Source: Alphaproteobacteria bacterium (GTDB lineage: Bacteria > Pseudomonadota > Alphaproteobacteria > Rhizobiales > Rhizobiaceae). From it: a DNA stretch of 64,000 nucleotides. The stretch lies in assembly GCA_024742485.1 (NCBI GenBank), contig JANSYK010000003.1, positions 434,001 to 498,000 on the forward strand, given 5' to 3'. This document shows, piece after piece, positions 30,385-53,433 of this stretch; position 1 is the first letter of the stretch, and every line of letters starts with the position of its first letter. The translations under genes were made by a program, and so were the position numbers. The notes under the pieces are model-generated. The model saw nothing but the letters and a program-made list of their open reading frames with translations, was not told the origin of the DNA and did not search any database.

Positions 30385-30393
30385 CTGGACTTC

Positions 30394-30427
30394 CTAGGCT
30401 GTAGTGACGATTTAACCTATGCGCCGG
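30394..30427 (+). repeat. Left terminal inverted repeat of the MITE-like element
   Basis: 34 bases starting CTAGGCTGTAGTGACG. The inverted copy is at 30632-30665; the sole difference is at position 29 (C here, T in the other copy). Confidence 0.85.
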
Positions 30428-30523
30428 CGTGGCACACGTCGTTCCTGGCAAGGCGCGAAATGCGCCGTCGTGTCGGCCACGTCAAGCATTTTGCAACGAT
30501 GTCCAGGGGCGACGTGTGCCACG
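30428..30523. repeat. Internal 14-bp inverted repeat inside the MITE-like element
   Basis: CGTGGCACACGTCG at 30428-30441 is perfectly inverted as CGACGTGTGCCACG at 30510-30523, with 68 bases between. The left copy starts right after the terminal repeat, so RNA from the element could fold into a long hairpin. Confidence 0.7.
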
Positions 30524-30631
30524 TCCAGAAGGGATTTGCCCGGATTGGACCAGGATCGGCCCCTTCGTCGTCGAATATGCACCAGCATGTCCTTCCTCCT
30601 CATAAACCGATCCTGAACAAATCCGAACAAA

Positions 30632-30665
30632 CCGGCACATAGGTTAAATCGTCACTACAGCCTAG
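30632..30665 (-). repeat. Right terminal inverted repeat of the MITE-like element
   Basis: Inverted copy of 30394-30427, 33 of 34 bases identical, ending in CTAG next to the kdsA stop region. Confidence 0.85.
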
Positions 30666-30671
30666 AGCATT

Positions 30672-37111: not shown

Positions 37112-37337
37112 CAATGAGTGCACCGCACCGAAATGGGAACCGGTATTCGTCTCCCATGCGGTGTTTCGAAGAAGGTCGGGCTTGAATCAGTTTCCGAGGG
37201 ATCGGTCATAACGAATTGAAAAGTAAAAGCTGGCAGCGGCAATTGACAGGAGTCTCTGCCGCACAGCGTCGAAATCTCCTTGATCCGATAGGGCCAATCT
37301 GTCGGTTCGGGCAGTTGACAAAGTGCCCAAAGAAATG

Positions 37338-37371
37338 TTTTGCATATTAAACAATATTTTGTATACTGAAC
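37338..37371 (+). promoter_or_regulatory. TRAP operon promoter with predicted IclR operator (site A)
   Basis: TTTGCA (37339-37344), a 17-base spacer and TATACT (37362-37367) form a good sigma-70-type promoter. The whole 34-base stretch matches 47122-47155 on the other strand at 27 of 34 positions, and its core TTTTGTATAC recurs upstream of iclR. The shared sequence over the -10 region suggests a common operator for the IclR regulator. Confidence 0.65.
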
Positions 37372-37442
37372 TTGCTGACATGATTTGCCGGCGCCCTTGC
37401 CGGTGTCAAGAAACGAACCAGGATCAATCCGGGAGGAAAAGT

Positions 37443-38429
37443 ATGAAATACACACATTTGCTAGGTGCGGTTGCAGGCGCGTTGATGCTGCTCGCTACCC
37501 CATCCATGGCGCAGGACAAGAACCACGCTGCGGCGACATTCATATCCGGCGGCCCGACGGGAACCTGGTTCCCCACCGCAACAGCCATCTCGGAAATGGT
37601 CAACGAGAACTATGAAGGCCAGCCGGTCAGCACGATCCCCGGAAAGGGCGCGATCGGAAACCCGCTTTCTGTGGGCAGCGGCAAGGCCGATTTCGGACTG
37701 TCCTACGGACCGTTCCTGTTGGCCATCTACAATGGCAACAACGCCGTCTTCGACAAGGCCGGTATGAGCAATCTGCGGGCAATCGCCAATGTGGTTCCCA
37801 ACACGGTTCAAATCGTCATGGCGGGCGACCAGCCGCCGGATACGTTCTCGAAAGTGACCGATGGCGAAAAGCTCCGTATTGGTGTGGGCGCCAAAGGCTC
37901 GTCAAACCTTTTTGGGATTGAAAGGGTCATGGAGGAATACGGAACCGATTTCGATGGTATCGAAAAGGCCGGGGGCACGGTTATGGAAGGCCAGCAGCAG
38001 GGGCTTCTGGACGCCTTTCTCAATCGCCAGATTGATGTCTACACCAACACGGTCGGCGTCAGGTCGAGCGACTTGCAGCAGGCCATGGCGGCTCGTGACG
38101 CCTATCTGTTCAGCATGCCGGACGATATTCGCGACAAGATGGTCAAGAATTGGGGTTACGTGAAATACGACATTCCGCCCGGAACCTATGCGAGCCAGAA
38201 GGAGATGGTCCAGTCGCTGAATCTCTCCACGATCATCTTCACCACCGCGGAAATGGATGATGAGATCGTCTACAACATGGTCAAGGAGATGGCAGAAAAT
38301 CGCGACCGTCTGATCTCCGCCTATGGAGGTTTTGAAAACTGGCAGCCGGATCTGATGCCGGTGGGTCATCCGATCCCGACCCATCCAGGCGCGACGCGTT
38401 ACTTCAAAGAGGCTGGTTGGGTCCAGTAA
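37443..38429 (+). CDS. TAXI-family TRAP transporter solute receptor
   Basis: 328 residues from the ATG at 37443, which follows GGGAGG. Signal peptide (LLGAVAGALMLLATPSMAQ). The mature protein starts ATFISGGPTGTWFPTATAIS, the TAXI-family hallmark, then VSTIPGKGAIGNPLSVGSGKADFGLSYG (shown here as VSTIPGKGAIGN and KADFGLSYGP). It binds a solute, often a dicarboxylate or amino acid, in the periplasm and hands it to the fused permease downstream. Probably provides the substrate for the 40.5-49.4 kb catabolic genes, with which it shares a promoter sequence. Confidence 0.93.
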   Translation: MKYTHLLGAVAGALMLLATPSMAQDKNHAAATFISGGPTGTWFPTATAISEMVNENYEGQPVSTIPGKGAIGNPLSVGSGKADFGLSYGPFLLAIYNGNNAVFDKAGMSNLRAIANVVPNTVQIVMAGDQPPDTFSKVTDGEKLRIGVGAKGSSNLFGIERVMEEYGTDFDGIEKAGGTVMEGQQQGLLDAFLNRQIDVYTNTVGVRSSDLQQAMAARDAYLFSMPDDIRDKMVKNWGYVKYDIPPGTYASQKEMVQSLNLSTIIFTTAEMDDEIVYNMVKEMAENRDRLISAYGGFENWQPDLMPVGHPIPTHPGATRYFKEAGWVQ

Positions 38430-38446
38430 TTCAAGCGCTCCCAAAC

Positions 38447-38476
38447 AACGCCAGGCAGTGTAAACTGCCTGGCGTT
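38447..38476 (+). terminator. Intrinsic terminator/attenuator between TRAP receptor and permease genes
   Basis: AACGCCAGGCAGT and ACTGCCTGGCGTT form a perfect 13-bp stem around GTAA, directly followed by the rest of a TTTT run. It lies between the receptor stop and the permease start and would give more receptor than permease. Confidence 0.8.
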
Positions 38477-38510
38477 TTGCTATCAGCGGCATAGTTTCCT
38501 GGAGATCAAA

Positions 38511-40493
38511 ATGGCGAAAGCGGATAACGAATCTGCGCTTGGCACCACGCTGGACGTCGCTTCGATCTCGATTGATACTTTTGAAAAACGCCTCTTTCCG
38601 ACCGAACAACGCAAGCTGTCCGGCCCGTTACGCGTCTTTGTCACGCTCGCTTGCGCGACGTTGACACTGGTAACACTCTATTTCGCATTCACAGCGACCA
38701 TCGGCGAAGTCAAAACCCGAAGTTTTCACCTGTTCTTTACGGTCAGTCTGACATTCCTGCTTTATCCGGCCCTGTCCGGCAGTGTCCGCGGGCGACCCAG
38801 CATCGTTGATTGCATCCTCGCAGCCACAGCCACGGTCTGCTTCGCCTGGGCATTCTGGTCGCAGGACCGGTTTCTCGAGCGCTATGTCGGATTTGACGAC
38901 GTGCCGACCCTCGACATCATCCTGGGCACGCTGGCGATCATCGTGATTTTCGAGGCGACACGCCGCACCGTCGGCGTGATCATTGTATGTCTGAACATGT
39001 TCTTCATTGCCTATGCAGTGACGGGTCCCTATTGGCCGGGGCTGTTCGAACATCGTGGGGTTCCATACAGCGAACTGATCGAAACCCTTTATATGGACAC
39101 CACCGGGATATTTAATTTCGTCACCGGAATTATGGCGACTTTCCTGTTTGTCTTTCTGTTGTTTGGCACCCTGTTGCGCGCAACCGGCGGTGATGCGGTA
39201 TTTACCAATCTTGCCTTGGCAATCGCCGGGCACAAGCGCGGCGGCCCGGCCAAAGTCGCCGTCATTTCATCCGCGCTGATGGGCATGCTGTCGGGCTCGT
39301 CCATATCGAATGTCGCAACGACCGGCACCATGACGATCCCACTGATGAAACGTACCGGCTACAAGCCCCATGAGGCTGCGGCCATTGAAGTCGTCGCCTC
39401 TGTCGGCGGAGGGCTGACACCGCCGCTGATGGGGGCGGGCGCCTTTATCATGGCAAGTCTGACCGGCGAGCCGCTGGTCAAGATCTTGATGTATTCGCTG
39501 GCACCGGCAATCCTGTACTACTTTTCAATTTACGTTTTCACCGATGTCAAAGCAGCTCAACGGGGACTGGAGGGTCTGCCTAAATCCGAACTGCCGCGGA
39601 TAGGCCAGGTCATCATCCAGGGATGGCACATCCTCATTGCCATATCGCTACTGATTGGTCTGATGCTGATGGATTTTACACCCTTTTTTGCGGCGGGTGC
39701 GTGCGTCGTCGGCACCTATGTCATGGCGCTGACACGTCGCACCACCCGGATTGGATTTCGCAAGACCTTTGCCACTCTCGAGGCCGGTGCGCGTGTTGCC
39801 ATGAGCATTTCCGCGCTGCTCGCCAGTGCCGCCATCATTTACGGCGTGGTGGTGCAGACCGGTCTGCTGATCAAGATCACGTCGATCCTGCTGGATTTCT
39901 CGGGTGGGTCGATGTTCATCGCCATCGTATTGATCGGCCTGATCAGCTATGTGGTCGGCATGGGCATGCCGGTCACCGCATCCTACGTGATCATTGCAGC
40001 GCTCGGCGCTCCTTTTTTGCAGGATCTGGGCATGTCGGTGCTCGCTGCCCATCTGATCATCTTCTGGTTTGCGCAGGATTCGACCATCACGCCTCCGGTC
40101 TGCATGACCGCCTTTGTCGGCGCCCGCATCGCGGCCGCCGATCCGATGCGAACCGGGTGGGAGTGCGTCAAACTCGGGAAGGCTCTCTATATCATTCCGT
40201 TCGTCTTTGCGTTTGGCAGTCTGCTGGCTCCGAGCATCCTGGAAATCTCGTTTGATGTTGCCTGCCTGCTCCTCGGGTTCTGGGCATTGCAAATCGCGCT
40301 CACCGGTTATTGGCGAAAGACGCTCGGGATCACCGCGCGGCTGTATCTCACGGCCATCGCCATTGCCGGTATCTATGCGACCGTCGGCACAGTTTTCGAC
40401 GGGGTTCCGGTCCTGGTCGGAGCGATGATCGCCACCGTCGTGTTTGTTTTTTTCACAAAGCCTGACAGATCAGATGCGGTTGAATCTGCGTGA
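38511..40493 (+). CDS. TRAP transporter fused permease (DctQM type)
   Basis: 660 residues, a membrane protein with roughly 16 hydrophobic segments. The N-terminal third corresponds to the small DctQ subunit; the rest is the large DctM subunit with VISSALMGMLSGSSISNVAT, ASVGGGLTPPLMGAGAFIMA and the repeat half FWFAQDSTITPPVCMTAFVG. Fused permeases of this kind belong with TAXI receptors. Sodium- or proton-driven uptake across the inner membrane. Separated from the receptor gene by a terminator-like hairpin. Confidence 0.93.
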   Translation: MAKADNESALGTTLDVASISIDTFEKRLFPTEQRKLSGPLRVFVTLACATLTLVTLYFAFTATIGEVKTRSFHLFFTVSLTFLLYPALSGSVRGRPSIVDCILAATATVCFAWAFWSQDRFLERYVGFDDVPTLDIILGTLAIIVIFEATRRTVGVIIVCLNMFFIAYAVTGPYWPGLFEHRGVPYSELIETLYMDTTGIFNFVTGIMATFLFVFLLFGTLLRATGGDAVFTNLALAIAGHKRGGPAKVAVISSALMGMLSGSSISNVATTGTMTIPLMKRTGYKPHEAAAIEVVASVGGGLTPPLMGAGAFIMASLTGEPLVKILMYSLAPAILYYFSIYVFTDVKAAQRGLEGLPKSELPRIGQVIIQGWHILIAISLLIGLMLMDFTPFFAAGACVVGTYVMALTRRTTRIGFRKTFATLEAGARVAMSISALLASAAIIYGVVVQTGLLIKITSILLDFSGGSMFIAIVLIGLISYVVGMGMPVTASYVIIAALGAPFLQDLGMSVLAAHLIIFWFAQDSTITPPVCMTAFVGARIAAADPMRTGWECVKLGKALYIIPFVFAFGSLLAPSILEISFDVACLLLGFWALQIALTGYWRKTLGITARLYLTAIAIAGIYATVGTVFDGVPVLVGAMIATVVFVFFTKPDRSDAVESA

Positions 40494-40520
40494 CAGACGC
40501 AGCACCGCATGCACCCGCTC

Positions 40521-41306
40521 TCAAAACCGACCGCAGTCAACTTTCATCTTGTCGCCGGTGATGGCGGATGAAAGATCCGATGCATAGAAAAGCGCTGCCC
40601 GGGCGACTTCATCGGGCGCTACCCAACGTTTAAGTGCGGCCACTTCCGTGTAGTTTTCCCGTTCGATTTCTTCGGCGGTCCGGCCTTCCGCAGCGGCGCG
40701 GCGCGCCAGGATCCGATCCATATTCTCGCCTGACACTGCTCCGGGCATCAGGGCATTGACCCGCACACCTTTCGGTCCCAGCTCGCGTGCCATGGTCTCG
40801 GTAATGCCGATCAGCGCGAATTTGCTGGCCACATAGGCTGAGCGACCCGGATAACCCTGAATCCCCATCAGCGACGACATATTGATGATCGAACCGGATT
40901 CTTGCGCCGACATCACCCGCGCTGCCTCCTGCAGGCAATACATGGCGCCCACAAGGTTGATATTCATGCAGGCGATCCATTCCGACATATCCACATCGCT
41001 AACCGGTGCGATCGGTCCGGGCCCCCCGGCATTGTTGACCAGCACGTCGATCCTGCCTGTCACCTGCAACGCCTCGGAAAACAGGGCCCTGACTTGGGCC
41101 TGGTCGGAAACGTCACACGGTATGGCATGTCCGCCGACCGCCTGGGCGACCTCCTCAAGCGGCGGCTGACGGCGTCCCGTGACAATCACGGTTGCACCCG
41201 CCGCGGCAAAAATCCTCGCGGTTACCGCGCCGATGCCCGTACCGCCGCCGGTGATCAGCGCCAATTTGCCGTCAAGCCGGCTCGGATCGGACGATGACTG
41301 GTTCAT
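40521..41306 (-). CDS. Short-chain dehydrogenase/reductase
   Basis: 261 residues. Cofactor motif ALITGGGTGIGAVTARIF, NNAGG, catalytic Ser in INMSSLMG and YVASK for the Tyr/Lys pair. The TGRRQ segment after the second strand suggests NADP or NAD use cannot be settled by eye. Last gene of the seven-gene operon starting at 47081; its ATG overlaps the stop of the upstream FAD enzyme (ATGA). Probably oxidises a hydroxyl group on a pathway intermediate. Confidence 0.9.
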   Translation of the reverse strand: MNQSSSDPSRLDGKLALITGGGTGIGAVTARIFAAAGATVIVTGRRQPPLEEVAQAVGGHAIPCDVSDQAQVRALFSEALQVTGRIDVLVNNAGGPGPIAPVSDVDMSEWIACMNINLVGAMYCLQEAARVMSAQESGSIINMSSLMGIQGYPGRSAYVASKFALIGITETMARELGPKGVRVNALMPGAVSGENMDRILARRAAAEGRTAEEIERENYTEVAALKRWVAPDEVARAALFYASDLSSAITGDKMKVDCGRF

Positions 41307-42403
41307 TGCAGTTCCTCATTGAAATCCCGACCTGGATCGAACAGGGACAGCTCGGTCTCCCTGCCGAGTATGAAGTCTCCCATCAGCCTGCCAATATAGG
41401 GACCGATCGTAAAGCCGCCCCGCACACAGCCCAGGACGAAAGCGTTCGCAACGCCTGGCAACTGGCCGGCAAGTGGATAAAAATCGGGCACATTTGCTTC
41501 AAAACCGGTCCAGCAGCGCGTCACACGCGCCGAACCCAGTGCCGGCAGGGCGAACTGGGCCAGCGCAAGATTGGGAATAACCGTTTCCATGGTAACCGTT
41601 CCTCTTCCGGACTGCGGTGTTCCGCGCCCCTGCCAGCCGCCGCCGATCAGCACGGTGCCATCGGTTTTCTGTTTCATCGTCAGCAGCCCGGTCGCATGGC
41701 CGATGACCGCGGAAAAGAGCGGTTTCATGCGTTCGGTGACCGAGGCGGTGTTGACCCGCACATTGATCGGCAGGTCGACACCCAACTGGCCAGCAAGCGG
41801 CTTAATCCAGCCACCCGCTGCAATCAGCAGGCGAACGCATTTCACCGGTGCTTGCGGCGTTTCTATGCGAAATCCGCCGGACGTTTGTGAGATCTTGGTT
41901 GCCGGGCAGCGTTCCCGAACATCGATGTCCGCTGCGCGCATCCGAAGGCGATAGTAGCGTCCCGTCAGCGACGAGTTGGCATATCCGTCTTCCGGGCAAT
42001 AGCTGGCGGCAACGATTCCAGGGGCAAGGTTCGGCTCTGCTTTTCGTAGTTCATCGATCGACACAAACCGAATGGGTGCGCCGGCTTGCGCCTTCAGGGA
42101 CTGGCGTTCCTGCAGCAATGCTGCTTCCCGGGCCGTAAAGGCCAGCGTATAGCCGCCGGGCTTCTTGAAACCGACGGCGACGCCCATGGCTTCCCATTCG
42201 CGGTGCCCGGCCAGCGCATAGGGCATCAGTTTGACCCGCTTGATCTGAAGGGAAAGCGTTCCCGCATTGACCCCGGACGCACCGAGCCCAAGATCACCCT
42301 GATCCAGCACGATGGTCCGCATTCCGACTTCCGCCAGCCGCAGCGCGGTTGCGCAGCCCATGATGCCACCGCCGATGATCGCGATGTCATGAGTCGTGCT
42401 CAT
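41303..42403 (-). CDS. DadA/HcnC-like FAD oxidoreductase, catalytic beta subunit
   Basis: 366 residues from ATG 42403, which overlaps the upstream gene's TGA; the long in-frame extension upstream lies over that gene and is not real. FAD motif THDIAIIGGGIMGCATALRL, then DQGDLGLGASGVNAGTLS; C-terminal LGCVRGGFTIGPYIGRLMGD closes the DAO fold. With the next two genes it forms a three-subunit dehydrogenase like HcnABC, opine oxidase or D-hydroxyproline dehydrogenase, which oxidise a C-N bond of an amino or imino acid. Confidence 0.88.
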   Translation of the reverse strand: MSTTHDIAIIGGGIMGCATALRLAEVGMRTIVLDQGDLGLGASGVNAGTLSLQIKRVKLMPYALAGHREWEAMGVAVGFKKPGGYTLAFTAREAALLQERQSLKAQAGAPIRFVSIDELRKAEPNLAPGIVAASYCPEDGYANSSLTGRYYRLRMRAADIDVRERCPATKISQTSGGFRIETPQAPVKCVRLLIAAGGWIKPLAGQLGVDLPINVRVNTASVTERMKPLFSAVIGHATGLLTMKQKTDGTVLIGGGWQGRGTPQSGRGTVTMETVIPNLALAQFALPALGSARVTRCWTGFEANVPDFYPLAGQLPGVANAFVLGCVRGGFTIGPYIGRLMGDFILGRETELSLFDPGRDFNEELQ

Positions 42404-43824
42404 AGCGGCGCCGGTTTGGATATCGGCAGGTCGTCGTAGTTGAAGTCGTCGGCCATCGCCGACAGGGGAACCGGGCGCAACGGTGGCCGGGGCGTCGGCG
42501 GTGCAACGCTGCCTTCCGGCAGGTTCGCGGTGTGCTCGATCAAACGTGACACGGCTGTCTGGCAATAGCGGCCGCCACAGGGGCCCATGCCCGCACGCAG
42601 CCCCGCCTTGACCGCATTTGTACTGGTCGCACCAGTCCGGATTTCGTCGCGAATGTCGGCAAGTGTCAGGCTTTCGCAACGGCATATTATGGTGTTTGGT
42701 GTTGCCACCCGGTTCAGGCCGGGCCGTGGAAGGGCAAGGGCCGTCGCCGCGCGTCCGAACCGTGCGGCGCGGGCATGTTGCGACAAAAGCTGCTGATAGA
42801 GATTTTCCGACCGCTGTGCGCCGAAACCGGTCGCAGCTGCCAATCCGGCCAGCCGACCCTGAACAACCGCTGCAGCAGCCCCCAAAATGCCAGCGCCGTC
42901 GCCGCACACAAATAGGTTTTTCACCTCGGTGATGCCATCGGGCGCGACACGGGCAACCCATCCACCCAACTCTGCCCGATAGGTGAGTTCAAGCCCGGCC
43001 AGTTGGGCTGCCTGAGTGTCCGGTATGAGACCGTGACCGAGGCAAAGGCTGTCGGCGTTCAAGGTCCGCACCTTATCCACCGGGCTCCAATCCGGGCTGA
43101 CCCTTTGAAAGTGCACCGCGTCGACCTGCGAGGTTCCTGACACGGCGGTAACGGCGTGCCGCCAATGGATCGGAATGCCACTGGTCATGAGGTCTGCCAC
43201 CCATGTGGCACCGCGTGCAAGCAGGTCCGGGCGTGCGGACATGGCGGGAATTGCTCGCAGCCACTCCGACCGGGAATTGGGTGTGATCACGGCAGCGATT
43301 TGTCCACCGAGACGCCTGATTTCACTGGCGACGAAGAAGGCAAGAGGACCAGCCCCTGCGACCACCGTGTTTTTGCCCGGCAAAATCAGCGCGTCCTTGA
43401 AGAGCGCGGTGGCGCCGGCCAGTCCGTGAACGCCGGGCGTCGTCCATCCGGGGATCGGATGGACGAATTCACGCGCCCCGGTGGCAAGGATCAGCGCGCG
43501 CGCCGTCATCTTTTCAGTCTGGTTGCCCTGAAGCAGATACAGGCGCCACACATCGTCGACACGTTCGATCTGCCAGACCCGTGTGCTGCCGTGATGGGTG
43601 ATGTCCGACTGGTTGACCGCCCGGCGCAAAGCGTCTCCGGCTTTCGATTCCGAATTTGCGGGTGCGCTCAAAATGGAGGTGCTCTTTGCGCGCCAGACTT
43701 GACCGCCCGGCTGCGCGGCCTCATCCAGCAGGACTACGGAACAACCGCCGGTCGCCGCCTGAATGGCCGCATTCGCACCCGCCGGACCGGCGCCAAGCAC
43801 GGCAATGTCGCAATCGGCGGTCAT
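42400..43824 (-). CDS. HcnB/OoxA-like FAD-NAD(P) oxidoreductase with BFD-type [2Fe-2S] domain, alpha subunit
   Basis: 474 residues. Pyridine nucleotide-disulfide oxidoreductase fold: DIAVLGAGPAGANAAIQAAT, ARALILATGAREFVHPIPG, VFVCGDGAG-type motif LFVCGDGAGILGAAAAVVQG. The C-terminal 100 residues are a bacterioferritin-associated-ferredoxin-like domain with CRCESLTLADI and GLRAGMGPCGGRYCQ giving the four Cys of a 2Fe-2S cluster. Relays electrons between the FAD of the beta subunit and the small ferredoxin subunit. Both junctions are 4-base overlaps. Confidence 0.9.
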   Translation of the reverse strand: MTADCDIAVLGAGPAGANAAIQAATGGCSVVLLDEAAQPGGQVWRAKSTSILSAPANSESKAGDALRRAVNQSDITHHGSTRVWQIERVDDVWRLYLLQGNQTEKMTARALILATGAREFVHPIPGWTTPGVHGLAGATALFKDALILPGKNTVVAGAGPLAFFVASEIRRLGGQIAAVITPNSRSEWLRAIPAMSARPDLLARGATWVADLMTSGIPIHWRHAVTAVSGTSQVDAVHFQRVSPDWSPVDKVRTLNADSLCLGHGLIPDTQAAQLAGLELTYRAELGGWVARVAPDGITEVKNLFVCGDGAGILGAAAAVVQGRLAGLAAATGFGAQRSENLYQQLLSQHARAARFGRAATALALPRPGLNRVATPNTIICRCESLTLADIRDEIRTGATSTNAVKAGLRAGMGPCGGRYCQTAVSRLIEHTANLPEGSVAPPTPRPPLRPVPLSAMADDFNYDDLPISKPAPL

Positions 43825-44117
43825 GGTGCGCCATTGGTCGGCTCCACGACCAATCCATCAGTCACAATTCGCCGGCACGCTTCCGTTACCCGGCCGTCAA
43901 TGACGACCACGCACTCCTGGCAAAGACCCATGCAGCAGAACAGGCCGCGTGGGGCCTGATCGTTGGGGGCGGTGCGCGTGGTCAGTTGTCCGGCCCGCAA
44001 CAGCGCAACGGCAACCGTTTCACCCTCATGGGCTTGCACGGGCTGACCGTCAAAGTGGAATGTCAGCAACCGCGTACGTTTGATGTCGGTGCTGCGGTCT
44101 CGGATCAGCCGGATCAT
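43821..44117 (-). CDS. HcnA-like (2Fe-2S)-binding small subunit
   Basis: 98 residues. Fer2_4-type domain: LTFHFDGQPVQAHEGETVA, VALLRAG and the cluster-binding loop FCCMGLCQECVVVIDG, with a further Cys in VTEACRRIV. In HcnABC, opine oxidases and D-hydroxyproline dehydrogenases this gamma subunit carries a [2Fe-2S] cluster. Start and stop overlap its neighbours by four bases. Confidence 0.88.
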   Translation of the reverse strand: MIRLIRDRSTDIKRTRLLTFHFDGQPVQAHEGETVAVALLRAGQLTTRTAPNDQAPRGLFCCMGLCQECVVVIDGRVTEACRRIVTDGLVVEPTNGAP

Positions 44118-45013
44118 TGATATGCAATGCCCAGAGTGTCGAAGGTCGCCTTGATCCTGTCCATGTCGGCCTCAGTGGCCGCCAGCACCGGATCTCGAGG
44201 CACGCCGGCCGGCAGACCGATCAGATTGAGCGCCGCCTTGAAGGCCGCCGGCCATGTCGCCGTTCCCATCAGCAGTTCGTAGATGGTGGTGAGTTGAAAA
44301 TGCGCGCGGCGATACGCGTCGCCCGGGGGATCGCCGGCGATGGACGCCAGATCCGAAGGACGGTCTTCGATGAACTCCGGGCCGGTCGCGATGAAGCCCT
44401 TCGCCCCCAATCCGAAGGCGGGCATGATATAGTGACAGGGACCTGTCATGACGGAAAACCGGTCGGCGAGCTGTTCGAGAAGATGGGTGTGGTGGAAGAA
44501 ATCGCGGTGCGATTCCTTGATTCCAATGACATCGTAGCTGTCCTGGATGCGGCCGATCTGCTCGACCGTCAGGCTAAAACCCATCCGCCTCGGCGAATTG
44601 TAAAGAATAATCGGAAGCTCCGCCCTGCGATGGATCTGATCGAAGCGATTCATCAACTCGGCGTCGGTCGCCTTGAGAACATAGGTCTGCGGCATCGACA
44701 GGAGGGCGTCAGCACCGTTTTCCCTGGCCGCTTCGACATAGGCGAGGCTCGCCGAAATCGTTGGGGCGGAAATCCCCATGATGATCCGCACCCGGCCTTT
44801 TGACAGATCCTTGGCAAGCCGCACGAGACGGCCCCGCTCCTGCGGGGAAAGGGCCCAGCTTTCGCCATTGTCACCAGCGATGCAGATAGCCGTTGCGCCG
44901 CGTTCGACAAGATAGGCAAAAAGATCGGCAAAGGCGTCCTCCATGATGTCGCCCGCTTCATTGAACGGGGTCGCTATAGCCGGCACAAATCCATGCAGGT
45001 CCTGGCGTTTCAT
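44114..45013 (-). CDS. Dihydrodipicolinate synthase (DapA)-family lyase/hydratase
   Basis: 299 residues from ATG 45013. TIM-barrel class I aldolase family: GFVPAIATPFNEAGDI at the start, GDNGESWALSPQERGRL in place of the usual GTTGE loop, LYNSPRRMGFSL with the catalytic Tyr and DVIGIKESHRD with the Schiff-base Lys. The family includes aldolases, dehydratases and deaminases such as the pyrroline-hydroxycarboxylate deaminase of hydroxyproline breakdown. The neighbouring three-subunit dehydrogenase recalls that pathway, but epimerase and semialdehyde dehydrogenase genes are missing. True lysine biosynthesis is unlikely in this operon. Confidence 0.88.
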   Translation of the reverse strand: MKRQDLHGFVPAIATPFNEAGDIMEDAFADLFAYLVERGATAICIAGDNGESWALSPQERGRLVRLAKDLSKGRVRIIMGISAPTISASLAYVEAARENGADALLSMPQTYVLKATDAELMNRFDQIHRRAELPIILYNSPRRMGFSLTVEQIGRIQDSYDVIGIKESHRDFFHHTHLLEQLADRFSVMTGPCHYIMPAFGLGAKGFIATGPEFIEDRPSDLASIAGDPPGDAYRRAHFQLTTIYELLMGTATWPAAFKAALNLIGLPAGVPRDPVLAATEADMDRIKATFDTLGIAYQ

Positions 45014-45912
45014 GTCGGTGTCCTTTGATCTGGAATATCGGCTGTAAACACCGCCCCATATTGCGCATCGACAATATAGAGCCTTTCGGGACGGACCGGG
45101 TGGAACGCCACGCAGGTCGTCCACAGCCCTCTTGGCAGTCTTACTTCGGCAATGGCGTCGCCAAGCGCCGTGAACACATAGGCGCGGCCCGCCTGCGCCT
45201 GGGCAACCGCCAGCCAACCGTACTCGTTGGATGCCAGCCCGTCGGGGCCGAGACCGCCGGAAAGCTGCAAAAACGTGCCGACCATCGGCGTTCCGTTTTC
45301 CGGCAGGTCAGCAGCGAAACGCCAGATCTGATTGGCCCGTGTCGCCGCAACATAGATCTGGGTACCATCCGGTGTAGGAGCAATGCCGTTGGGATAGGGA
45401 ACGCAGTCGAGCAGGAGGTGCAATGTTCCGTCCGGTTTCAAACAGTAGACCCGTCCGGATCGGTCGCTCAGACTGGTGCGACCGGAATCGGTAAGCCAAA
45501 GTGTTCCATCGGCCGTATAGGCCATGTCCGAAAGTCCGAGAAAAGGCTGTTCGGGCAATCCACGATGCAGAGAAGCAATGCTGTTATCGTCACCAATGGC
45601 AACAAGGCCGCCGCTGTAATCGGCAATGATGTGACGCCCGTCCGGCGCGATGCGCATGGCGTGTGGTTCGCCGTCATAGTGATGCATAACCTGCCATTGT
45701 CCGGTCGGTGTGACCCGAAACACCCGGCCATAGGGCACATCGGACACCCACAGGTGATCCTCCGAATCGAAAAAACTGCCATCCAGAAAGCTGTGCATCG
45801 AATGCCCCGGGCGTGTCATCCGGGCCCAACGCGACGGCTCGCCCCGGTGGCGCAGCGCTACCGGCAAGGTGGTAAACGGTTCGGCCATCACAACAGGCGC
45901 CGACCGTATCAT
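45010..45912 (-). CDS. SMP-30/gluconolactonase-family protein (cluster 1)
   Basis: 300 residues, a six-bladed beta-propeller predicted from repeated strands such as HLWVSDVPYGRVFRVTPTG, MRIAPDGRHIIADYSGGLV, MAYTADGTLWLTDSGRT and GLASNEYGWLAVAQAQAG. Residues able to bind the single metal are in PNGIAPTPDGTQIYVA. Such enzymes hydrolyse lactones of sugar acids. Starts by a 4-base overlap with the CoA-transferase gene and ends by one with the DapA-like gene. Confidence 0.85.
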   Translation of the reverse strand: MIRSAPVVMAEPFTTLPVALRHRGEPSRWARMTRPGHSMHSFLDGSFFDSEDHLWVSDVPYGRVFRVTPTGQWQVMHHYDGEPHAMRIAPDGRHIIADYSGGLVAIGDDNSIASLHRGLPEQPFLGLSDMAYTADGTLWLTDSGRTSLSDRSGRVYCLKPDGTLHLLLDCVPYPNGIAPTPDGTQIYVAATRANQIWRFAADLPENGTPMVGTFLQLSGGLGPDGLASNEYGWLAVAQAQAGRAYVFTALGDAIAEVRLPRGLWTTCVAFHPVRPERLYIVDAQYGAVFTADIPDQRTPT

Positions 45913-47081
45913 GCGATAACTCCGGCATTGCGAAGCCGAGCAATGGCATCGGTCGAATAGCCCAGTTCTTTAAGAATCTCCGAACTGTGTTGGCCGACCG
46001 TTGGTGGCGAACGGGTTATTTTCGGTCCCCCTTGCAACAGGGAAAAGGCCGCAAGGGGTAGCATGACATCCGGATTGTCGGGTGAGGCGGAAAAATAGCC
46101 GCGTGCGTCAAGCTGCGGTTCTTCGACCGCTTCCGACAGCTTCTTGATGCGCTCTGCCGGCAGGTCGGCTGCGTGCAGCAATTCAACCCACTCGTCCGCC
46201 GCGCGCGTCAGAAACACGGACGCCAGTTGCGGACGCAATGTCCCGGCATTGGCCCAGACATCCGGCCAATCCCTGATCGACGATAATCCGTCAACCGTGT
46301 ATCCGAGTTTGCTGAGGCAATCATTCAACTTGCCGTACTGTGCTGGACGAAAGGCGCCCGGCATCAATTGGCCGTCCAGGGTTTCATAGGTGATAATTCC
46401 GGCCTCGGACGGGCGCTTGATCGGGTCGCTATGCTGCGCCGCAGCCACTTCCGGCGCCATGAGCGACATTGCGACCTCGAGCATCGATGCGCTGATCAGG
46501 GTGCCTCGTCCGCTATGCTGCCGCTGGTAGAGCGCCGCCATGATGGCAAAAGCCGCCGAATAGCCCGCGGCATAGTCGACAAATGAAACGCCGGGTTTGT
46601 GGCCCGCGCTTTGTGCGATGATGCCGCTGATCGCCTGAATGACATTGTCATAGGCGCCGGTGGCGGCCTTGGGGCCGGTGTTGCCGAACCCGGTCATCGA
46701 ACAATAGATCAAGCCGGTATTTTGTGCGGCAAGCTCCTCATAGCCCAGTCCCAGCCGTTCCATGGCACCGGTGGTATAGTTTTCGATGAAAACATCCGCG
46801 TCACGGGCCAGCGCCAGGAGAATGTCACGCCCTTCGGTGGTCGTCATATCCAAAGCGAGCGCACGCTTGTTTGCGCCCTGAACCTGATAAGTCAGTCCCA
46901 ATCCGTGTGCATTGAGCTCATCATCTGGTCCGCGCCCGCGGGCGCAGTCAGGAGCCGTCGGAGGCTCGATCTTGATGACATCAGCGCCGAGCAGGGCCAA
47001 CTGATAGCCGCAAAACGGCCCAGCCAGTACATGCGTCGCGTCCAGGACTCTCAGATTTTTCAGTGCCCCAGTCATTTCCAC
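45909..47081 (-). CDS. CaiB/BaiF-family (class III) CoA-transferase (cluster 1)
   Basis: 390 residues. N-terminal LRVLDATHVLAGPFCGYQLA and LLGADVIKIEPPTAPDCARG, followed by NKRALALDMTTTEGRDIL, DVFIENYTTGAMERLGLG (supplying the catalytic Asp region) and GLIYCSMTGFGNTGP. These enzymes move CoA from a donor thioester to a carboxylic acid. First gene of the seven-gene operon (47081 to 40521); its promoter region is shared with the divergent aminotransferase gene and holds operator site B. Confidence 0.9.
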   Translation of the reverse strand: MEMTGALKNLRVLDATHVLAGPFCGYQLALLGADVIKIEPPTAPDCARGRGPDDELNAHGLGLTYQVQGANKRALALDMTTTEGRDILLALARDADVFIENYTTGAMERLGLGYEELAAQNTGLIYCSMTGFGNTGPKAATGAYDNVIQAISGIIAQSAGHKPGVSFVDYAAGYSAAFAIMAALYQRQHSGRGTLISASMLEVAMSLMAPEVAAAQHSDPIKRPSEAGIITYETLDGQLMPGAFRPAQYGKLNDCLSKLGYTVDGLSSIRDWPDVWANAGTLRPQLASVFLTRAADEWVELLHAADLPAERIKKLSEAVEEPQLDARGYFSASPDNPDVMLPLAAFSLLQGGPKITRSPPTVGQHSSEILKELGYSTDAIARLRNAGVIA

Positions 47082-47121
47082 CGCATTTCATTTCGCGAAA
47101 GCTCTTGTTTCCGACAGTTCT

Positions 47122-47155
47122 GTCTAATATACAAAACAATGTTTACTATGCAAGA
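47122..47155 (-). promoter_or_regulatory. Promoter/operator between divergent catabolic operons (site B)
   Basis: On the minus strand TTGCAT, a 17-base spacer and ATATTA form a promoter for the CoA-transferase operon. The 34 bases match the TRAP promoter (site A) at 27 positions in the same orientation relative to transcription. On the plus strand the site ends eight bases before the aminotransferase start, so a bound regulator would affect both directions. Confidence 0.65.
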
Positions 47156-47162
47156 CGGGATC

Positions 47163-48515
47163 ATGATGAGCCATATCCTCCAGCGAATTCTTGACAGGGA
47201 GCTTCCTACCGTCGTTGGGGGTGAGGGTAACATTCTGATCGACAGCGACGGTAGGCATTATTTGGACGCCTGCGGCGGTGCCGCCGTATCATGCCTTGGT
47301 CATGATAACGCCCGTGTACGCGCCGCCATTTGTGACCAGGTCAACACGATCGCTTTCGGCCATTCGGGCTTCTTCACCAACCGGCCCGCCGAGGATCTGG
47401 CCGATAGTTTGATCTCTGGTGCGCCCAAGGGAACGGGTGACGGACGCGTCATGTTTGTGGGAAGTGGCTCCGAGGCCATGGAAGCGGCACTGAAGCTGGC
47501 GCGTCAGATCCATGTGGAGCGGGGCGAACCCACGCGTACACGTTTTATCGCCCGCGGCTCAAGTTACCACGGCAACACGCTGGGTGCGCTGGCAACCGGT
47601 GGACATGCCCAGCGCCGGGCACCTTTTGATCCGCTGCTGATGACGGTTGATCACATTGATCCCTGCTACGAATATCGATATCGGCGAGAAGGGGAGGCGG
47701 AAGAAGCATTTGGCTTGCGCATGGCCGATCAGCTTGAAGATCGGATTTTGCACCTTGGCGCCGAAAATGTCGCTGCTTTTGTTGCCGAGCCGGTTGTCGG
47801 CGCGACGCTCGGCACGCAACCGGCCACCCCAGGATATTTCAAGCGCATTCGACAGATATGTGATCGCCACGGAGTGCTGTTCATTGCCGATGAAGTGATG
47901 TGCGGGATCGGGCGGACCGGCAGTTTCTTTGCACTGGAACAGGAGGGTGTACACGCTGACATCACGACGATTGCCAAGGGTTTGGGCGCAGGCTATCAGC
48001 CGATTGCGGCTGTTGTCGCCAGCGAACGGGCCATCCGTGCCATCGAAGAAGGCAGCGGCCGGCTCTGGAACGGCCACACCTACATGTCCCATGCCGTGGC
48101 TGCTGCAGGTGCGCTGGCGGTCCTGAACGTGATCCGCGACGACAATCTGCTGGACAATGTCCGGAAAATGGGCGGGTTGCTGGAACAGCGACTGCGCACC
48201 GCCTTCGGCCAGCACCCCCATATCGGTGACATTCGTGGCCGTGGTCTCTTCTGGTCGGTCGAACTTGTGCGCGAGAGAGAGCGAAAAACACCCTTCGCGG
48301 CAGACGAGGCGCTCGCCTGGCATATACAGGACGCGGCGCTGGAAGAAGGACTGATGTGTTATCCCGCCCAAGGCTGCGCCGACGGCATCAATGGCGATCA
48401 TGTGCTGCTGGCGCCATCCTATACATCGACACCGCTTGAAATCGAGACGATCGTTGACACGCTTGCACTGGCGATCGACCGTTCGCTGAAATCCGAAAAC
48501 ATCGCCCATGCCTGA
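47163..48515 (+). CDS. Class III pyridoxal-phosphate aminotransferase (cluster 1)
   Basis: 450 residues if started at ATG 47163 (an ATG follows at 47166, and another lies at 47148 inside the operator). Features: MFVGSGSEAMEAALKLAR, ARGSSYHGNTLGALATGG, LFIADEVMCGIGRTG and ITTIAKGLGAGYQPIAAV with the PLP Lys. Likely acts on an omega-amino acid or a 3-amino acid and gives a 3-oxo acid or semialdehyde, which the downstream BKACE enzyme could cleave. Its stop overlaps the BKACE start by eight bases. Confidence 0.9.
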   Translation: MMSHILQRILDRELPTVVGGEGNILIDSDGRHYLDACGGAAVSCLGHDNARVRAAICDQVNTIAFGHSGFFTNRPAEDLADSLISGAPKGTGDGRVMFVGSGSEAMEAALKLARQIHVERGEPTRTRFIARGSSYHGNTLGALATGGHAQRRAPFDPLLMTVDHIDPCYEYRYRREGEAEEAFGLRMADQLEDRILHLGAENVAAFVAEPVVGATLGTQPATPGYFKRIRQICDRHGVLFIADEVMCGIGRTGSFFALEQEGVHADITTIAKGLGAGYQPIAAVVASERAIRAIEEGSGRLWNGHTYMSHAVAAAGALAVLNVIRDDNLLDNVRKMGGLLEQRLRTAFGQHPHIGDIRGRGLFWSVELVRERERKTPFAADEALAWHIQDAALEEGLMCYPAQGCADGINGDHVLLAPSYTSTPLEIETIVDTLALAIDRSLKSENIAHA

Positions 48516-49398
48516 CCGTGCGACAATCCTGACGGCCGCCGTTACGGGCAATTTGACGCGTCCGGATCAAAACCCCAATCTGCCGGTCACGCCTGCGCAG
48601 ATTGCGACGGCCGCACTTGAGGCTGCAAGCGCCGGGGCGGCGATTGTGCACCTGCATGTCCGCGATCCTGAAACGGCCAGGGGATCCATGCGCATTGATC
48701 TCTATCGGGACGTGGTTGACCGCATCAGGGCGCGCAATACGGATGTAATTTTGAATCTGACCACCGGGGAGGGCGGTCGATTTGTCCCCACGGACGATGA
48801 TCCGCAAAAAGCGGCGCCGGGTTCAACCCTGTGTGTGCCGGAAAAACGCGTTGCCCATATCGAGGCACTGCGGCCGGAAATCTGCACCCTGGATTTCAAC
48901 ACCATGTGGTCCGGACAGGCGAGCGTGATCAACGCACCGCGCAATCTCGAGATCATGGCAAGGCGAATCTATGCCAGTGGCGTCAGACCTGAGATCGAGA
49001 TATTTGATTCCGGCGATCTGCACCTTGTCAAATATTTCCTGAAAAAGGACATTCTGGTCGAACCTCTGCTGGTCCAGATCGTACTCGGCGTACGCTTCGG
49101 TGCCGTCGCTGATCCGCAAACCATGGCCTATCTGGTCGGCCAGTTGCCACCCGGATCACAATGGGCGGCGTTTGGCATCGGCCGCATGGCCTTTCCCATG
49201 TTGGCCCAGGCCTTTCTTCTTGGCGGTCATGTGCGCATCGGCATGGAGGATACGGTGCAGATCGCGCCGGGGGAACTGTGCCGGGACAATGCACAACTGG
49301 TGGAAAAGGCGGTCTCGATCGTTGAAAGCCTTGGCGGCAAGATTGCGACCCCGCTGGAGGCGCGCAAAATTCTCGGGGCTACAGACGGTCCGCGATGA
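48508..49398 (+). CDS. Beta-keto acid cleavage enzyme (BKACE, DUF849)
   Basis: 296 residues, TIM barrel. Metal-binding VHLHVRDPETARGSM (the HxH pair) near residue 50, LNLTTGEGG, DFNTMWSG, PEIEIFDSGDL and AAFGIGRMAFPM, ending with VRIGMEDTVQIAPGELCRDN (typical GLEDN-like end). BKACE enzymes react a beta-keto acid with acetyl-CoA to give acetoacetate and a new CoA ester. Forms a two-gene operon with the aminotransferase; together these suggest amino group removal followed by C-C cleavage. Confidence 0.9.
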   Translation: MPDRATILTAAVTGNLTRPDQNPNLPVTPAQIATAALEAASAGAAIVHLHVRDPETARGSMRIDLYRDVVDRIRARNTDVILNLTTGEGGRFVPTDDDPQKAAPGSTLCVPEKRVAHIEALRPEICTLDFNTMWSGQASVINAPRNLEIMARRIYASGVRPEIEIFDSGDLHLVKYFLKKDILVEPLLVQIVLGVRFGAVADPQTMAYLVGQLPPGSQWAAFGIGRMAFPMLAQAFLLGGHVRIGMEDTVQIAPGELCRDNAQLVEKAVSIVESLGGKIATPLEARKILGATDGPR

Positions 49399-49403
49399 CT
49401 GTC

Positions 49404-50189
49404 CTAACCCGCATAACCCAGTTCACGGGAAATGCTTAGCGCCGCTTCCTTCACAGCGGGAATATAGAAGCTCTCGATCCGGTCGAAATCAAATCCGCTG
49501 TCGGGGCCGGAGATGTTCACGCAGGCCGTAATGCGCCCGCTATTGTCCCGCACAGGCACGGACACACTGGACCCGCCGGCTTCCAGATAGCCGCGTGAGA
49601 ACACATACCCGTCGTCCCGCGCCTGGTGAACCCGTGCCCTGAGCGCCTCGAAATCGGTCGGCGTGTGCTCTGTCAGGGCGGGCATCTCCTGCTCCCGGCA
49701 AAAGGCCTCCAATTCCTCGTCGTTCATGGCAGCGAGGAGACACCAGCCGATCCCTGACCCGTAGGCCGGCGTTCGTGTGCCGGTCGTCAGATTGCTGACA
49801 AAGCCCGACCGCGCCTGATGGCTGCTCAGATACAGAACATCATGGCCTTCAAGGGCGCTTAAGTGGGCGCTGACGCCGACATCGTCGCGTAATTTCGAAA
49901 GATGCCTGCGGGCAATGGAGGTAATCGGCTGTTGATTGAGATAGGCAAAACCGAGATTGAGAACGCGCGCACCCAGCGTGTAGGTGTGTTTCTGATCGCC
50001 TTCTTTCAGAAAGGCCATCTGATGCAGCGTGTAAACAAGCCGAAAGGCCGAGGACCGGCTGACGCCGAGTTCCTTTGCGATCTCGGTGAGGGTCATGGGC
50101 TGATTGGCATCTCCGAGGATTGTCAGCACACGCAATCCGCGACTGAGGCCCGGGACAAAATAGACGGAATGGTTCGACGATTCGCTCAT
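49404..50189 (-). CDS. IclR-family transcriptional regulator
   Basis: 261 residues from ATG 50189; GGAGG lies about 15 bases upstream. Winged helix: VPGLSRGLRVLTILGDANQP, TLTEIAKELGVSRSSAFRLV and YTLHQMAFL; the C-terminal effector domain has LSALEGHDVLYLSSHQARSG, RTPAYGSGIGWCLLAAMND and VCVNISGPD-like ACVNISGPDSGFD. IclR proteins respond to small organic acids. The TTTTGTATAT sequence upstream of its own gene matches the core of the promoters at 37338 and 47122, so it is the probable regulator of the whole 37.4-49.4 kb cluster and of itself. Confidence 0.92.
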   Translation of the reverse strand: MSESSNHSVYFVPGLSRGLRVLTILGDANQPMTLTEIAKELGVSRSSAFRLVYTLHQMAFLKEGDQKHTYTLGARVLNLGFAYLNQQPITSIARRHLSKLRDDVGVSAHLSALEGHDVLYLSSHQARSGFVSNLTTGTRTPAYGSGIGWCLLAAMNDEELEAFCREQEMPALTEHTPTDFEALRARVHQARDDGYVFSRGYLEAGGSSVSVPVRDNSGRITACVNISGPDSGFDFDRIESFYIPAVKEAALSISRELGYAG

Positions 50190-50229
50190 TGTCGGGTTGC
50201 AGGTCCTCCAGCCGTACTTCAGTGGTTTT

Positions 50230-50239
50230 ATATACAAAA
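50230..50239 (-). promoter_or_regulatory. IclR operator core upstream of iclR (site C)
   Basis: TTTTGTATAT on the minus strand, 40 bases upstream of the iclR start, identical in nine of ten positions to site A and in all ten to site B. Suggests autoregulation. Confidence 0.5.
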
Positions 50240-50373
50240 CACACGACGCGCAATGGCCGGCGGCCATGGGCATGCCGAACACCGATCCCGATAAGTTGCA
50301 TTGCTTTGAGAGGGGATTGACGGCCGAAACGCCGCTTTCATCGTGCAGCGCGTCGCTGCGGTCGGAGGCCGCT

Positions 50374-51639: not shown

Positions 51640-53433
51640 ATGATCAAGGCACAGCGCCAACAAAGAGTACTGGAAGTTCTCAGGGCCGAAGGCGCTGTGG
51701 ATGTGGCCTCCCTCGCGCGGATCATGCCCGAAGTCAGCCAGGTCACACTCCGCCGCGACGTTGCGGAACTTGCCGAGGCCGGCTCGCTTCGGCGCACCCA
51801 TGGTGGTGCTGTGTTGCCCGACGCCGTATTGGTCAGGCATCCGGCCACCCAGTCCCAACAGTCAGGTTCGTCCGGCGATATCAGTGACTTCGATGCTGTC
51901 ATTTTGCCGCCCATTCCGGGAAGGGGCGGTGATGCCCTTCGCCGGCACATCACAGATCGCGGCATTCCGTTTCTGGCAGAAAGCGCACCCCAGGACGGAG
52001 GCAACTATCTCGGTCCTGATAATGCCAGCGCCGGTCGCGATCTCGGGCGCATGGCCGGTGCCGAATTGCAACAATTTGCGCATCCGCGCGTGCTCGTCAT
52101 TGGTCATCCGGAGCTGTCCAACACGCGAGAACGGGTTGACGGTTTTCTTGAAGGGCTTCGCGATGGGCTTGGTCGCGACTGCGACGTTGTCTCCGTGAAC
52201 GGGCAAGGATCCTACAAGACCGCATTGAGGGTCGCGCTTGACGCCATGGCATCATCCGGGCCCTTTCAGGCGGCATTCGGAGTCAATGATCATTCGGCCA
52301 TCGCAATTGCCGAAGCGGCTGCGCGCGGCGAACAGGAAATCGCAATCTATGCGACGGGAGGCGAGAGCGCCGAATTCGTGGGCCGGCTGGCCAACCGCAA
52401 CCGCATCCGCGCCATTGCCGCCTTCTTTCCCGAGCGCGTCGGGGAGCAGGCGATTGATGTCCTTGCAAACACCCTTTCAGGCCAGCCACTTCCCGAAACC
52501 GTAACCACACCCTATGCGATACTCGACGCTGACACCCTTGGCGACTATTTCGAACAAAAAGACGGAGCATGGCAGCTCAAGGTGGCGCGCCGCACACCAC
52601 TGAAGCCGCTGAAACGCCGTTTCGGGAGCCGCCGACCCAAGGTTGGTTTCATACCGCACTTCCCGGCCCATGACTGGTATCGCCAGATGATCCAGTCCAT
52701 GCAGGTCAGGGCAGGGCAACACGGGCTCGAACTCGTTGTGATCGCTCCTCACAAGGGTATTTCAGCCGAGGTAACCCGACTGCGCCGGGAGATCGCCCGC
52801 GCGGCATGTTCCGGACTTGCACCGGGTGAAACCATCCTGATTGGTGATGGCGAAGCCGCATTGCTGTTTGCTGAAGAGATCCGCCGGACGGCCTATCAGG
52901 AACCTGAACGGGTCGAGGGATTGACGATCATCACCAATGCGCTTGACGTCCTGTTCCAGCTTGAAAACGTTCCCGGGGTCAAGGCACTGATCACAAGTGG
53001 TGAGTACCAGTCCGTCGACAGGTGCCTGGTTGGTCCAAGTGTCGGGGCGATATTCGAGCGCGTGAGGGCCGACCGGGCCTATATTGCGCCGGCGGGATTG
53101 TCCCGCAAGTTCGGTCTTTCCTCGATGGATGAACGCCTGGCACTAGCCGGTTCCCGCCTGGTCGACGCAGCGCGTCGTACCTTTGTTCTGGCGGATCACA
53201 CCGTTGTTGGTGCCGACGCCAATCACCGCGTCGCCCGCATTGAGGATGTCGACGAGGTGATTACGGATGACGGGGCGCTGCCCGCCGATCGCCAGTCACT
53301 CCGCTCGGCGGGAATTCTTGTTCGCGTTGCCGGAGACGACGGCAACGAACACCACCAGTCAGGCAATCCGCATGATCGGGACCTGGCGTCCGAACCTCAG
53401 CTTCGAAATGTAACCCATGGGAGGAACCAATGA
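51640..53433 (+). CDS. DeoR-type regulator with internal periplasmic-binding-protein-like sensor
   Basis: 597 residues in three parts. Residues 1-57 are a DeoR winged helix (QRQQRVLEVLRAEGAVDVAS, then VSQVTLRRDVAELAEAGSLR and RTHGGAV). Residues about 82-308 look like most of a LacI/ribose-binding fold (AVILPPIPG, GRDLGRMAGAELQQ, VLVIGHPE, RVDGFLEGLRDGLG, AAFGVNDHSAIAIAEAA, IRAIAAFFPERVGEQAIDVL). The segment that normally begins that fold, KVGFIPHFPAHDWYRQMIQS and HGLELVVIAP, comes afterwards at 334-370. Residues 383-545 are the DeoR C-terminal sugar-phosphate sensor (TILIGDGEAALLFAEEI, IITNALDVL, RTFVLADHTVVGADANH). Normal DeoR proteins are about 260 residues. Overlaps the binding-protein gene by four bases. 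Confidence 0.82.
   Translation: MIKAQRQQRVLEVLRAEGAVDVASLARIMPEVSQVTLRRDVAELAEAGSLRRTHGGAVLPDAVLVRHPATQSQQSGSSGDISDFDAVILPPIPGRGGDALRRHITDRGIPFLAESAPQDGGNYLGPDNASAGRDLGRMAGAELQQFAHPRVLVIGHPELSNTRERVDGFLEGLRDGLGRDCDVVSVNGQGSYKTALRVALDAMASSGPFQAAFGVNDHSAIAIAEAAARGEQEIAIYATGGESAEFVGRLANRNRIRAIAAFFPERVGEQAIDVLANTLSGQPLPETVTTPYAILDADTLGDYFEQKDGAWQLKVARRTPLKPLKRRFGSRRPKVGFIPHFPAHDWYRQMIQSMQVRAGQHGLELVVIAPHKGISAEVTRLRREIARAACSGLAPGETILIGDGEAALLFAEEIRRTAYQEPERVEGLTIITNALDVLFQLENVPGVKALITSGEYQSVDRCLVGPSVGAIFERVRADRAYIAPAGLSRKFGLSSMDERLALAGSRLVDAARRTFVLADHTVVGADANHRVARIEDVDEVITDDGALPADRQSLRSAGILVRVAGDDGNEHHQSGNPHDRDLASEPQLRNVTHGRNQ

Follow-up and report, generated by a model that had tools for sequence, protein, structure and literature searches.

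The closest described counterparts of the regulatory system treated here are the PcaR/PcaU/PobR-type regulators of the IclR family, which control aromatic catabolism and of which the PobR and PcaU types work as activators. We analyzed a stretch of 64,000 nucleotides (the window) from an alphaproteobacterium of the family Rhizobiaceae (assembly GCA_024742485.1, contig JANSYK010000003.1, positions 434,001 to 498,000), which carries a catabolic gene cluster with its own IclR-type gene and five copies of a predicted 16-bp operator, GTTTTGYATNTAAAAC. The window regulator resembles the described type in its top NCBIfam model, in a predicted local catabolic regulon and in divergent control, and it differs in scoring below the family cut-off, in its predicted operator and in the genome around it, where the intradiol dioxygenase that adjoins iclR in relatives has no match at E 1e-30. 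We consider it highly probable that the five copies are IclR operators serving repression and autoregulation in one local uptake-and-breakdown regulon of 12 genes in four units, and from the sequence comparisons the importer, the nine-gene catabolic set and the regulator gene very probably switch on together. The importer belongs to the TAXI-TRAP type; substrates are known for only a few TAXI transporters (PMC11574862).

Predicted operators at four transcription units

The cluster occupies 37.4-50.2 kb of the window and consists of four transcription units, with boundaries inferred from strand and gene order: the TAXI-TRAP importer (plus strand), a seven-gene operon opening with a CoA-transferase gene (minus strand), an aminotransferase-DUF849 pair (plus strand) and iclR (minus strand). 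A preliminary description had pointed to a 34-base match between two of the promoters and to a shorter core upstream of iclR, and both were recovered as described: positions 37338-37371 on the plus strand agree with the reverse complement of 47122-47155 at 27 of 34 positions, and the core TTTTGTATAT is present on the minus strand at 50230-50239. When the window was compared exhaustively with its own reverse complement, five distinct pairs scored at least 27/34, so the match alone is not exceptional and its significance comes from other evidence. The higher-scoring among these pairs are two local inverted repeats (30387-30673 and a hairpin near 38447), and two unrelated pairs, 17195/59615 and 16300/59630, also reach 27/34. 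The 34-base match resolves into two copies, 19 bp apart, of the 16-bp near-palindrome GTTTTGYATNTAAAAC at each long site, and the site upstream of iclR is one perfect copy of it. The predicted operators and the promoter-like sequence are:

37337..37352, plus strand: predicted operator copy 1 at the TAXI-TRAP promoter, GTTTTGCATATTAAAC; the one place in the genome that differs from GTTTTGYATNTAAAAC at a single position, second in the window by the outside-only matrix (see below)
37356..37371, plus strand: predicted operator copy 2 at the TAXI-TRAP promoter, ATTTTGTATACTGAAC, 19 bp downstream of copy 1; the weakest copy, fifth in the matrix ranking with 17.5 bits, fitting the tandem pattern without a mismatch
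37339..37367, plus strand: sigma-70-like promoter TTTGCA-17-TATACT within the TAXI tandem operator, 9/12 in a consensus scan
47122..47137, minus strand: predicted operator copy 2 at the divergent CoA-transferase/aminotransferase promoter, GTTTTGTATATTAGAC; from genome scan, tandem pattern and matrix, with an equivalent in 12/13 outside loci
47141..47156, minus strand: predicted operator copy 1 at the divergent CoA-transferase/aminotransferase promoter, GTCTTGCATAGTAAAC; from tandem pattern and matrix; includes TTGCAT, a possible -35 element
50225..50240, minus strand: predicted single operator upstream of iclR, GTTTTGTATATAAAAC, 35 nt before the start codon; the sole exact genome match, with an equivalent in 9/9 testable loci

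The matching element had been described as a shared promoter/operator with a -35/-10 pair at 17-base spacing in both long sites. This description can be refined. The pair was found with that spacing at the TAXI promoter, and the same scan did not list the equivalent pair at 47122-47155, which reads CTTGCA-17-TATATT or TTGCAT-16-TATATT. The element is better described as predicted tandem operators laid over promoter-like sequence, overlapping TTGCAT and TATATT/TATACT elements.

Rarity of the operator

The motif scan proposed in the preliminary description was carried out on the 6.87-Mb genome and gave an exact match to the 16-mer only at iclR and a 1-mismatch match only at TAXI. Allowing two mismatches added the CoA-transferase copy, the iclR site read in reverse and three places elsewhere, and at up to three mismatches there was no excess over a reversed-pattern control (52+58 vs 90+87). 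The copy at 37356 has more than three mismatches to the 16-mer and was missed by the single-site scan. A 13-base form of the motif occurs at four places in the genome, three of them at the cluster; the fourth (L007:10001; loci and genomes are given L and G numbers) is flanked by genes unlike those of the cluster and was set aside as chance.

The tandem arrangement was searched for in eleven genomes, the own genome and ten others picked for carrying a form of the cluster. At up to three mismatches the own genome had two matches and nine of the ten others had one each, and the reversed-pattern control gave zero. In an order-wide sample of 199 genomes the pattern was found at up to two mismatches in the own genome only, with one control match in each of two genomes. 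All nine exact 16-mer matches in ten genomes lie at the cluster.

A matrix was built from 29 distinct sites outside the window, starting from 41, leaving out two uncertain copies at L127 and collapsing identical ones within a class. With this outside-only matrix the five window copies take ranks 1-5 in the 64 kb at 28.5, 27.3, 24.7, 20.5 and 17.5 bits, and the next independent place scores 12.2 bits. The best place in 60 first-order Markov sequences of 64 kb reached 17.24 bits, a value that the weakest copy (37356) barely exceeds.

Conservation of the sites and their movement with the genes

Related clusters were collected by a CoA-transferase scan of genome contigs, which returned 80 loci. 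Seven of these (L013-L019, with 54-61% identity in the CoA-transferase) have at least four cluster genes in the fetched DNA, as do none of the remaining loci. Further clusters were contributed by the same-family genomes G205, G263 and G540 (the last split over two contigs), by G300 of the same genus, and by a plasmid each of Sulfitobacter sp. SK012 and Rhizobium leguminosarum. With no locus counted twice, the collection comprises 13 outside loci (L135 is L125 re-fetched, L169 is L013 re-read, L168 belongs to the L014 genome, and L127 is from G300).

The sites are conserved in this collection. The tandem operator with its 19-bp spacing lies between the CoA-transferase and aminotransferase genes in 12 of the 13 outside loci (L013-L019, L126, L135, L167, L170 and L171), and the exception is L127, where a single weak copy lies at this place and a good one upstream of TAXI. 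A site is likewise present upstream of iclR at all nine loci where iclR heads its own unit, with 0 mismatches in seven and 1 in L170 and L171; this count leaves out L015, where the contig ends before iclR, and L125/L135, L126 and L127, where iclR follows TRAP. The L015 contig is labelled Halieaceae, and its CoA-transferase promoter is very like those of the marine Rhodobacteraceae L016 and L019, pointing to misbinning or transfer.

The sites also follow the transcription units when these are rearranged. Where TAXI-TRAP forms a separate unit (L017, L018) a site stands in front of TAXI, as in L127, and where TAXI-TRAP-iclR lies behind aminotransferase-BKACE on one strand (L125, L126) no site was found beyond the divergent pair at up to three mismatches. 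In L013/L169 (a Pelagimonas metagenome-assembled genome) and L168 a TctCBA-type importer replaces TAXI-TRAP at the locus, and a tandem pair, again 19 bp apart, stands in front of the MarR-tctCBA genes; TctC and MarR are Pfam-confirmed in L013 and named by likeness in L168. The L168 tandem pair also faces a gene pair resembling two genes that are annotated on the Sulfitobacter plasmid as universal stress protein and sulfatase. We rejected the broader idea of an operator in front of every importer that adjoins such a cluster, since the Sulfitobacter TctCBA and the R. leguminosarum ABC importer have no site at the mismatch limits given below.

A local autoregulated IclR regulon should have sites at the regulator gene and at each adjacent unit, kept in relatives, and this is what was found, with the importers of two relatives lacking one. 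The claim that importer, seven-gene operon, aminotransferase-DUF849 pair and iclR form one IclR regulon is supported by the conservation of the sites, their rarity, the replaced importer that keeps them, and the operon rearrangements.

The regulator as probable binder

The product of 49404-50189 is a member of the IclR family (HTH_IclR 54.4 bits, cut-off 22; IclR_C 125.1 bits, cut-off 24). Its best NCBIfam model, PcaR/PcaU/PobR (TIGR02431), gives 181.1 bits, below the subfamily cut-off of 284.75. An IclR gene is present at 12 of the 13 outside loci, and at the thirteenth, L015, the contig ends before the position of iclR. The stretch RSSxFRLVYTL of the DNA-binding domain recurs, unchanged or conservatively changed, in 11 aligned cluster-linked proteins, the window protein included. 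The L125/L126 proteins, which keep this stretch, are 48% identical to the window protein overall, with 62-64% in the DNA-binding region vs 43-44% in the effector domain. Linked and unlinked proteins separate clearly over the whole DNA-binding region, where unlinked IclR proteins (36% identity) share 26/68 and 22/67 residues with the window protein, and cluster-linked ones from 37/59 to 52/69; around L129, which encodes an unlinked IclR protein, no motif with up to three mismatches was found within 18 kb. Circumstantial as it is, this evidence points to the window IclR protein as the probable binder of the sites.

Proposed mechanism and alternatives

What the computation shows is where the sites lie, how rare they are in the genome, that they are conserved and that they move with the genes; IclR as the binder, repression, an inducer and a single common substrate for all the genes are what we infer. 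In the mechanism that we propose, an IclR dimer would bind each 16-bp near-palindrome GTTTTGYATNTAAAAC. With copies 19 bp apart (somewhat less than two helical turns) at the TAXI-TRAP and the divergent CoA-transferase/aminotransferase promoters, two dimers or one tetramer could cover the promoter and repress it, and a pathway metabolite binding to the C-terminal domain would relieve the repression. The single copy upstream of iclR would provide autoregulation. Repression is favoured because the operators lie over the -35/-10 elements and the aminotransferase start is 6 nt away, so that bound protein should block both divergent promoters.

Several observations weigh against this proposal. Some IclR proteins are activators. 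The sites that trained the matrix were chosen after the window had been read, so the matrix ranking was not made blind. Palindromy is poor in the upstream CoA-transferase copies (1-5 of 8 pairs), and in L014 and L016-L019, five of the 12 loci with a tandem pair, the 3-mismatch scan missed this copy, which was placed by the 19-bp register. G300 gave no tandem match at up to three mismatches, only degenerate copies, and two small genomes, G588 and G590, have between them seven 1-mismatch single sites that are not at the cluster. The TctCBA importer of the Sulfitobacter plasmid has no site with up to three mismatches in the 10 kb read and none with up to four before tctC, and the R. leguminosarum ABC importer has none with up to three. 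Finally, the recognition helix separates the proteins poorly, as the unlinked L129 shares 10/17 residues with the window and cluster-linked proteins share 11-13/17.

The alternative that survives best is that IclR activates from these operators, or represses itself and activates the other units. It is suggested by the PcaU/PobR-type relatives, which activate, by the top NCBIfam model of the regulator (though below its cut-off) and by the weak -35-like hexamer, which fits activated promoters. The operators, however, lie over the -35 and -10 elements and not upstream of them, and protein bound 6 nt from the aminotransferase start should block that promoter; we therefore regard activation as unlikely, though it deserves to be kept in mind.

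That the sequence is the operator of another regulator, for instance a GntR or MarR protein, is in our view quite improbable. A MarR gene adjoins the tct genes in L013, L168 and L184 (in L168 by likeness only), and TTGTATACAA-like sites are typical of GntR/FCD regulators. Against this, IclR accompanies the sites wherever the contig reaches its position, one perfect copy stands in front of iclR itself, and L013-L019 contain no match above 80 bits to the window LysR. Among the scanned window neighbours there is no MarR or GntR, with the regulators near each locus not fully catalogued.

Very improbable, too, is a conserved sigma-70 promoter core with no operator function, which would account for TTTGCA-17-TATACT inside the TAXI copy and for the recurrence of TTGCAT or TTGTAT in CoA-transferase promoters. 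Conservation extends to the flanking GTTTT/AAAAC arms, only a single copy stands in front of iclR, the L017/L018 TAXI sites lack TTGCAT yet keep one good palindrome, and a promoter core should recur across the genome, which this sequence does not; with conserved arms and a sequence so rare, the pure promoter-core explanation was rejected. Chance similarity of AT-rich promoter regions, for which the two unrelated window pairs at 27/34 could be cited, is hardly credible, being contradicted by the conservation in 12/13 outside loci and the genome-wide rarity and rejected by the tandem search and the outside-only matrix.

Genes of the cluster and their possible function

The genes of the predicted repressor-controlled regulon are:

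37443..38429, plus strand: TAXI solute-binding protein, TIGR02122 179.8 bits, cut-off 84.35
38447..38476, plus strand: strong hairpin between the binding-protein and permease genes, from sequence, -25.5 kcal/mol for 38439-38484
38511..40493, plus strand: fused TRAP permease, TIGR02123 562.5 bits, cut-off 320.65
40521..41306, minus strand: SDR oxidoreductase, final gene of the seven-gene operon, PF13561/PF00106
41303..42403, minus strand: DAO-type flavin adenine dinucleotide (FAD) oxidoreductase, PF01266, a presumed subunit of a three-component amine dehydrogenase
42400..43824, minus strand: FAD/NAD(P) oxidoreductase with BFD [2Fe-2S] domain, PF07992 and PF04324
43821..44117, minus strand: small 2Fe-2S protein, PF13510
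44114..45013, minus strand: DapA-family lyase or aldolase, PF00701
45010..45912, minus strand: SMP-30/gluconolactonase family protein, PF08450
45909..47081, minus strand: family III CoA-transferase, opening gene of the seven-gene operon, PF02515
47163..48515, plus strand: class III aminotransferase, NF005685 654.6 bits, cut-off 485; start 6 nt past the operator, chosen by us among the in-frame ATGs
48508..49398, plus strand: DUF849/BKACE-family enzyme, overlapping the aminotransferase gene, PF05853 309.7 bits, with Phe166 and Arg91 equivalents
49404..50189, minus strand: IclR-family regulator, PF01614 and PF09339, cluster-linked in other genomes

The importer is a TAXI-TRAP transporter, its TAXI binding protein adjoining a fused TRAP permease with both models above cut-off, and the hairpin between the two genes may set the ratio of binding protein to permease. 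In TAXI family sequence the binding protein resembles those of the glutamate transporters VcGluP and TtGluBP (111.5 bits to 8S4J). In VcGluP the key glutamate residues are, according to passages of PMC11574862, Tyr45 and Gln93; these align with Trp and Tyr in all six cluster TAXI proteins, that of the window among them, so the glutamate-specific residues are absent.

The DUF849 enzyme is a BKACE/Kce family member by the PF05853 score given above. It differs from BKACE/Kce at the proposed catalytic Tyr (Tyr145 of CcaKce, Tyr173 of PdKce), which is Phe in 11 of 11 cluster proteins, the window included; this count leaves out a partial copy at L015, and no BKACE gene was found at L016 and L019, so that its universal presence in the clusters was rejected. 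The same 11 proteins have Phe166 and the loop residue Arg91 in common with BsfD of flavophos synthesis, and 3C6C also has Phe at the catalytic Tyr position. In passages of PMC12871164 the Phe166 and Arg91 of BsfD are used to help explain its non-BKACE chemistry and phosphonate preference. Either the cluster enzyme would also depart from beta-keto acid cleavage, or the Phe/Arg features would be less diagnostic than proposed, and with these two residues the annotation of 48508-49398 as a beta-keto acid cleavage enzyme is uncertain.

Three-component FAD/2Fe-2S amine dehydrogenases include D-hydroxyproline dehydrogenase, HcnABC and opine oxidases. The window resembles these in having a DAO-type subunit, an FAD+BFD subunit and a small 2Fe-2S subunit in a row; for the FAD+BFD subunit no relative with a solved structure was found at E 1e-15. 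Judged from the importer types and the enzyme set, the substrate may be a carboxylated compound containing an amine.

An intradiol-dioxygenase-like gene adjoins iclR in the L013, L014, L016, L019 and G540 genomes and on both plasmids, as a pair in all of them but L019, where only one subunit was searched. The pairs, each divergent from iclR with a common operator region, lie at:

L013:4331-5686
L016:6375-7764
L167:1308-2610
L168:398-1858
L170:7583-8854
L171:9519-10811

In L013 the pair does not reach the cut-offs of the PcaG/PcaH models. The pair was rejected as a core member of the cluster on the absence of a match in the window genome mentioned at the outset. Sulfatase-like genes are found nearby in L016, L168 (by likeness) and L170 (annotation), and a P450 in L013. 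Together the dioxygenases, sulfatases and P450 hint that some relatives might start from an aromatic or sulfated precursor. A more far-reaching possibility, which we offer tentatively and hold to be rather doubtful, is that the regulon marks an undescribed pathway for a carboxylated amine in several alphaproteobacterial families, partly on plasmids, fed in some relatives by sulfatases, the intradiol dioxygenase pair and, in one, a P450, with the DUF849 enzyme performing a BsfD-like acetyl transfer in place of beta-keto acid cleavage and the TAXI importer having a new specificity.

Homarine catabolism literature gave no lead to the substrate. In the open-licence literature on BKACE/DUF849, 3-keto-5-aminohexanoate cleavage, TAXI and the gene set nothing was found on the cluster among the papers listed, though the regulon may still be published, and of the 12 papers matching the operator letters none of the ten listed mentioned IclR.

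Other observations in the window

The inverted repeats at 30387-30673 (best 33/34, about 190 bp apart) lie just upstream of the 29410-30384 gene and could be a small terminal-repeat element. At 32950-34050 a GcvT-like protein scores 369.6 bits against the dimethylsulfoniopropionate (DMSP) demethylase model, with a cut-off of 410. The regulator at 51640-53433 combines a DeoR-type helix-turn-helix with a LacI-like periplasmic-binding domain and a C-terminal DeoR sensor domain in a single chain, and adjoins a sugar ABC binding protein.

Significance

A locally encoded catabolic IclR regulon is of a kind already known, and the interest of this one lies in its substrate and in the atypical DUF849 enzyme more than in the regulatory logic. 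The analysis adds DUF849 proteins in which Phe stands in place of the proposed catalytic Tyr and for which the annotation "beta-keto acid cleavage" is not settled. A catabolic cluster of several alphaproteobacterial genera also gains a predicted operator, regulon and regulator. With these the cargo of the TAXI importer becomes a testable question, namely which compound releases IclR from GTTTTGYATNTAAAAC.

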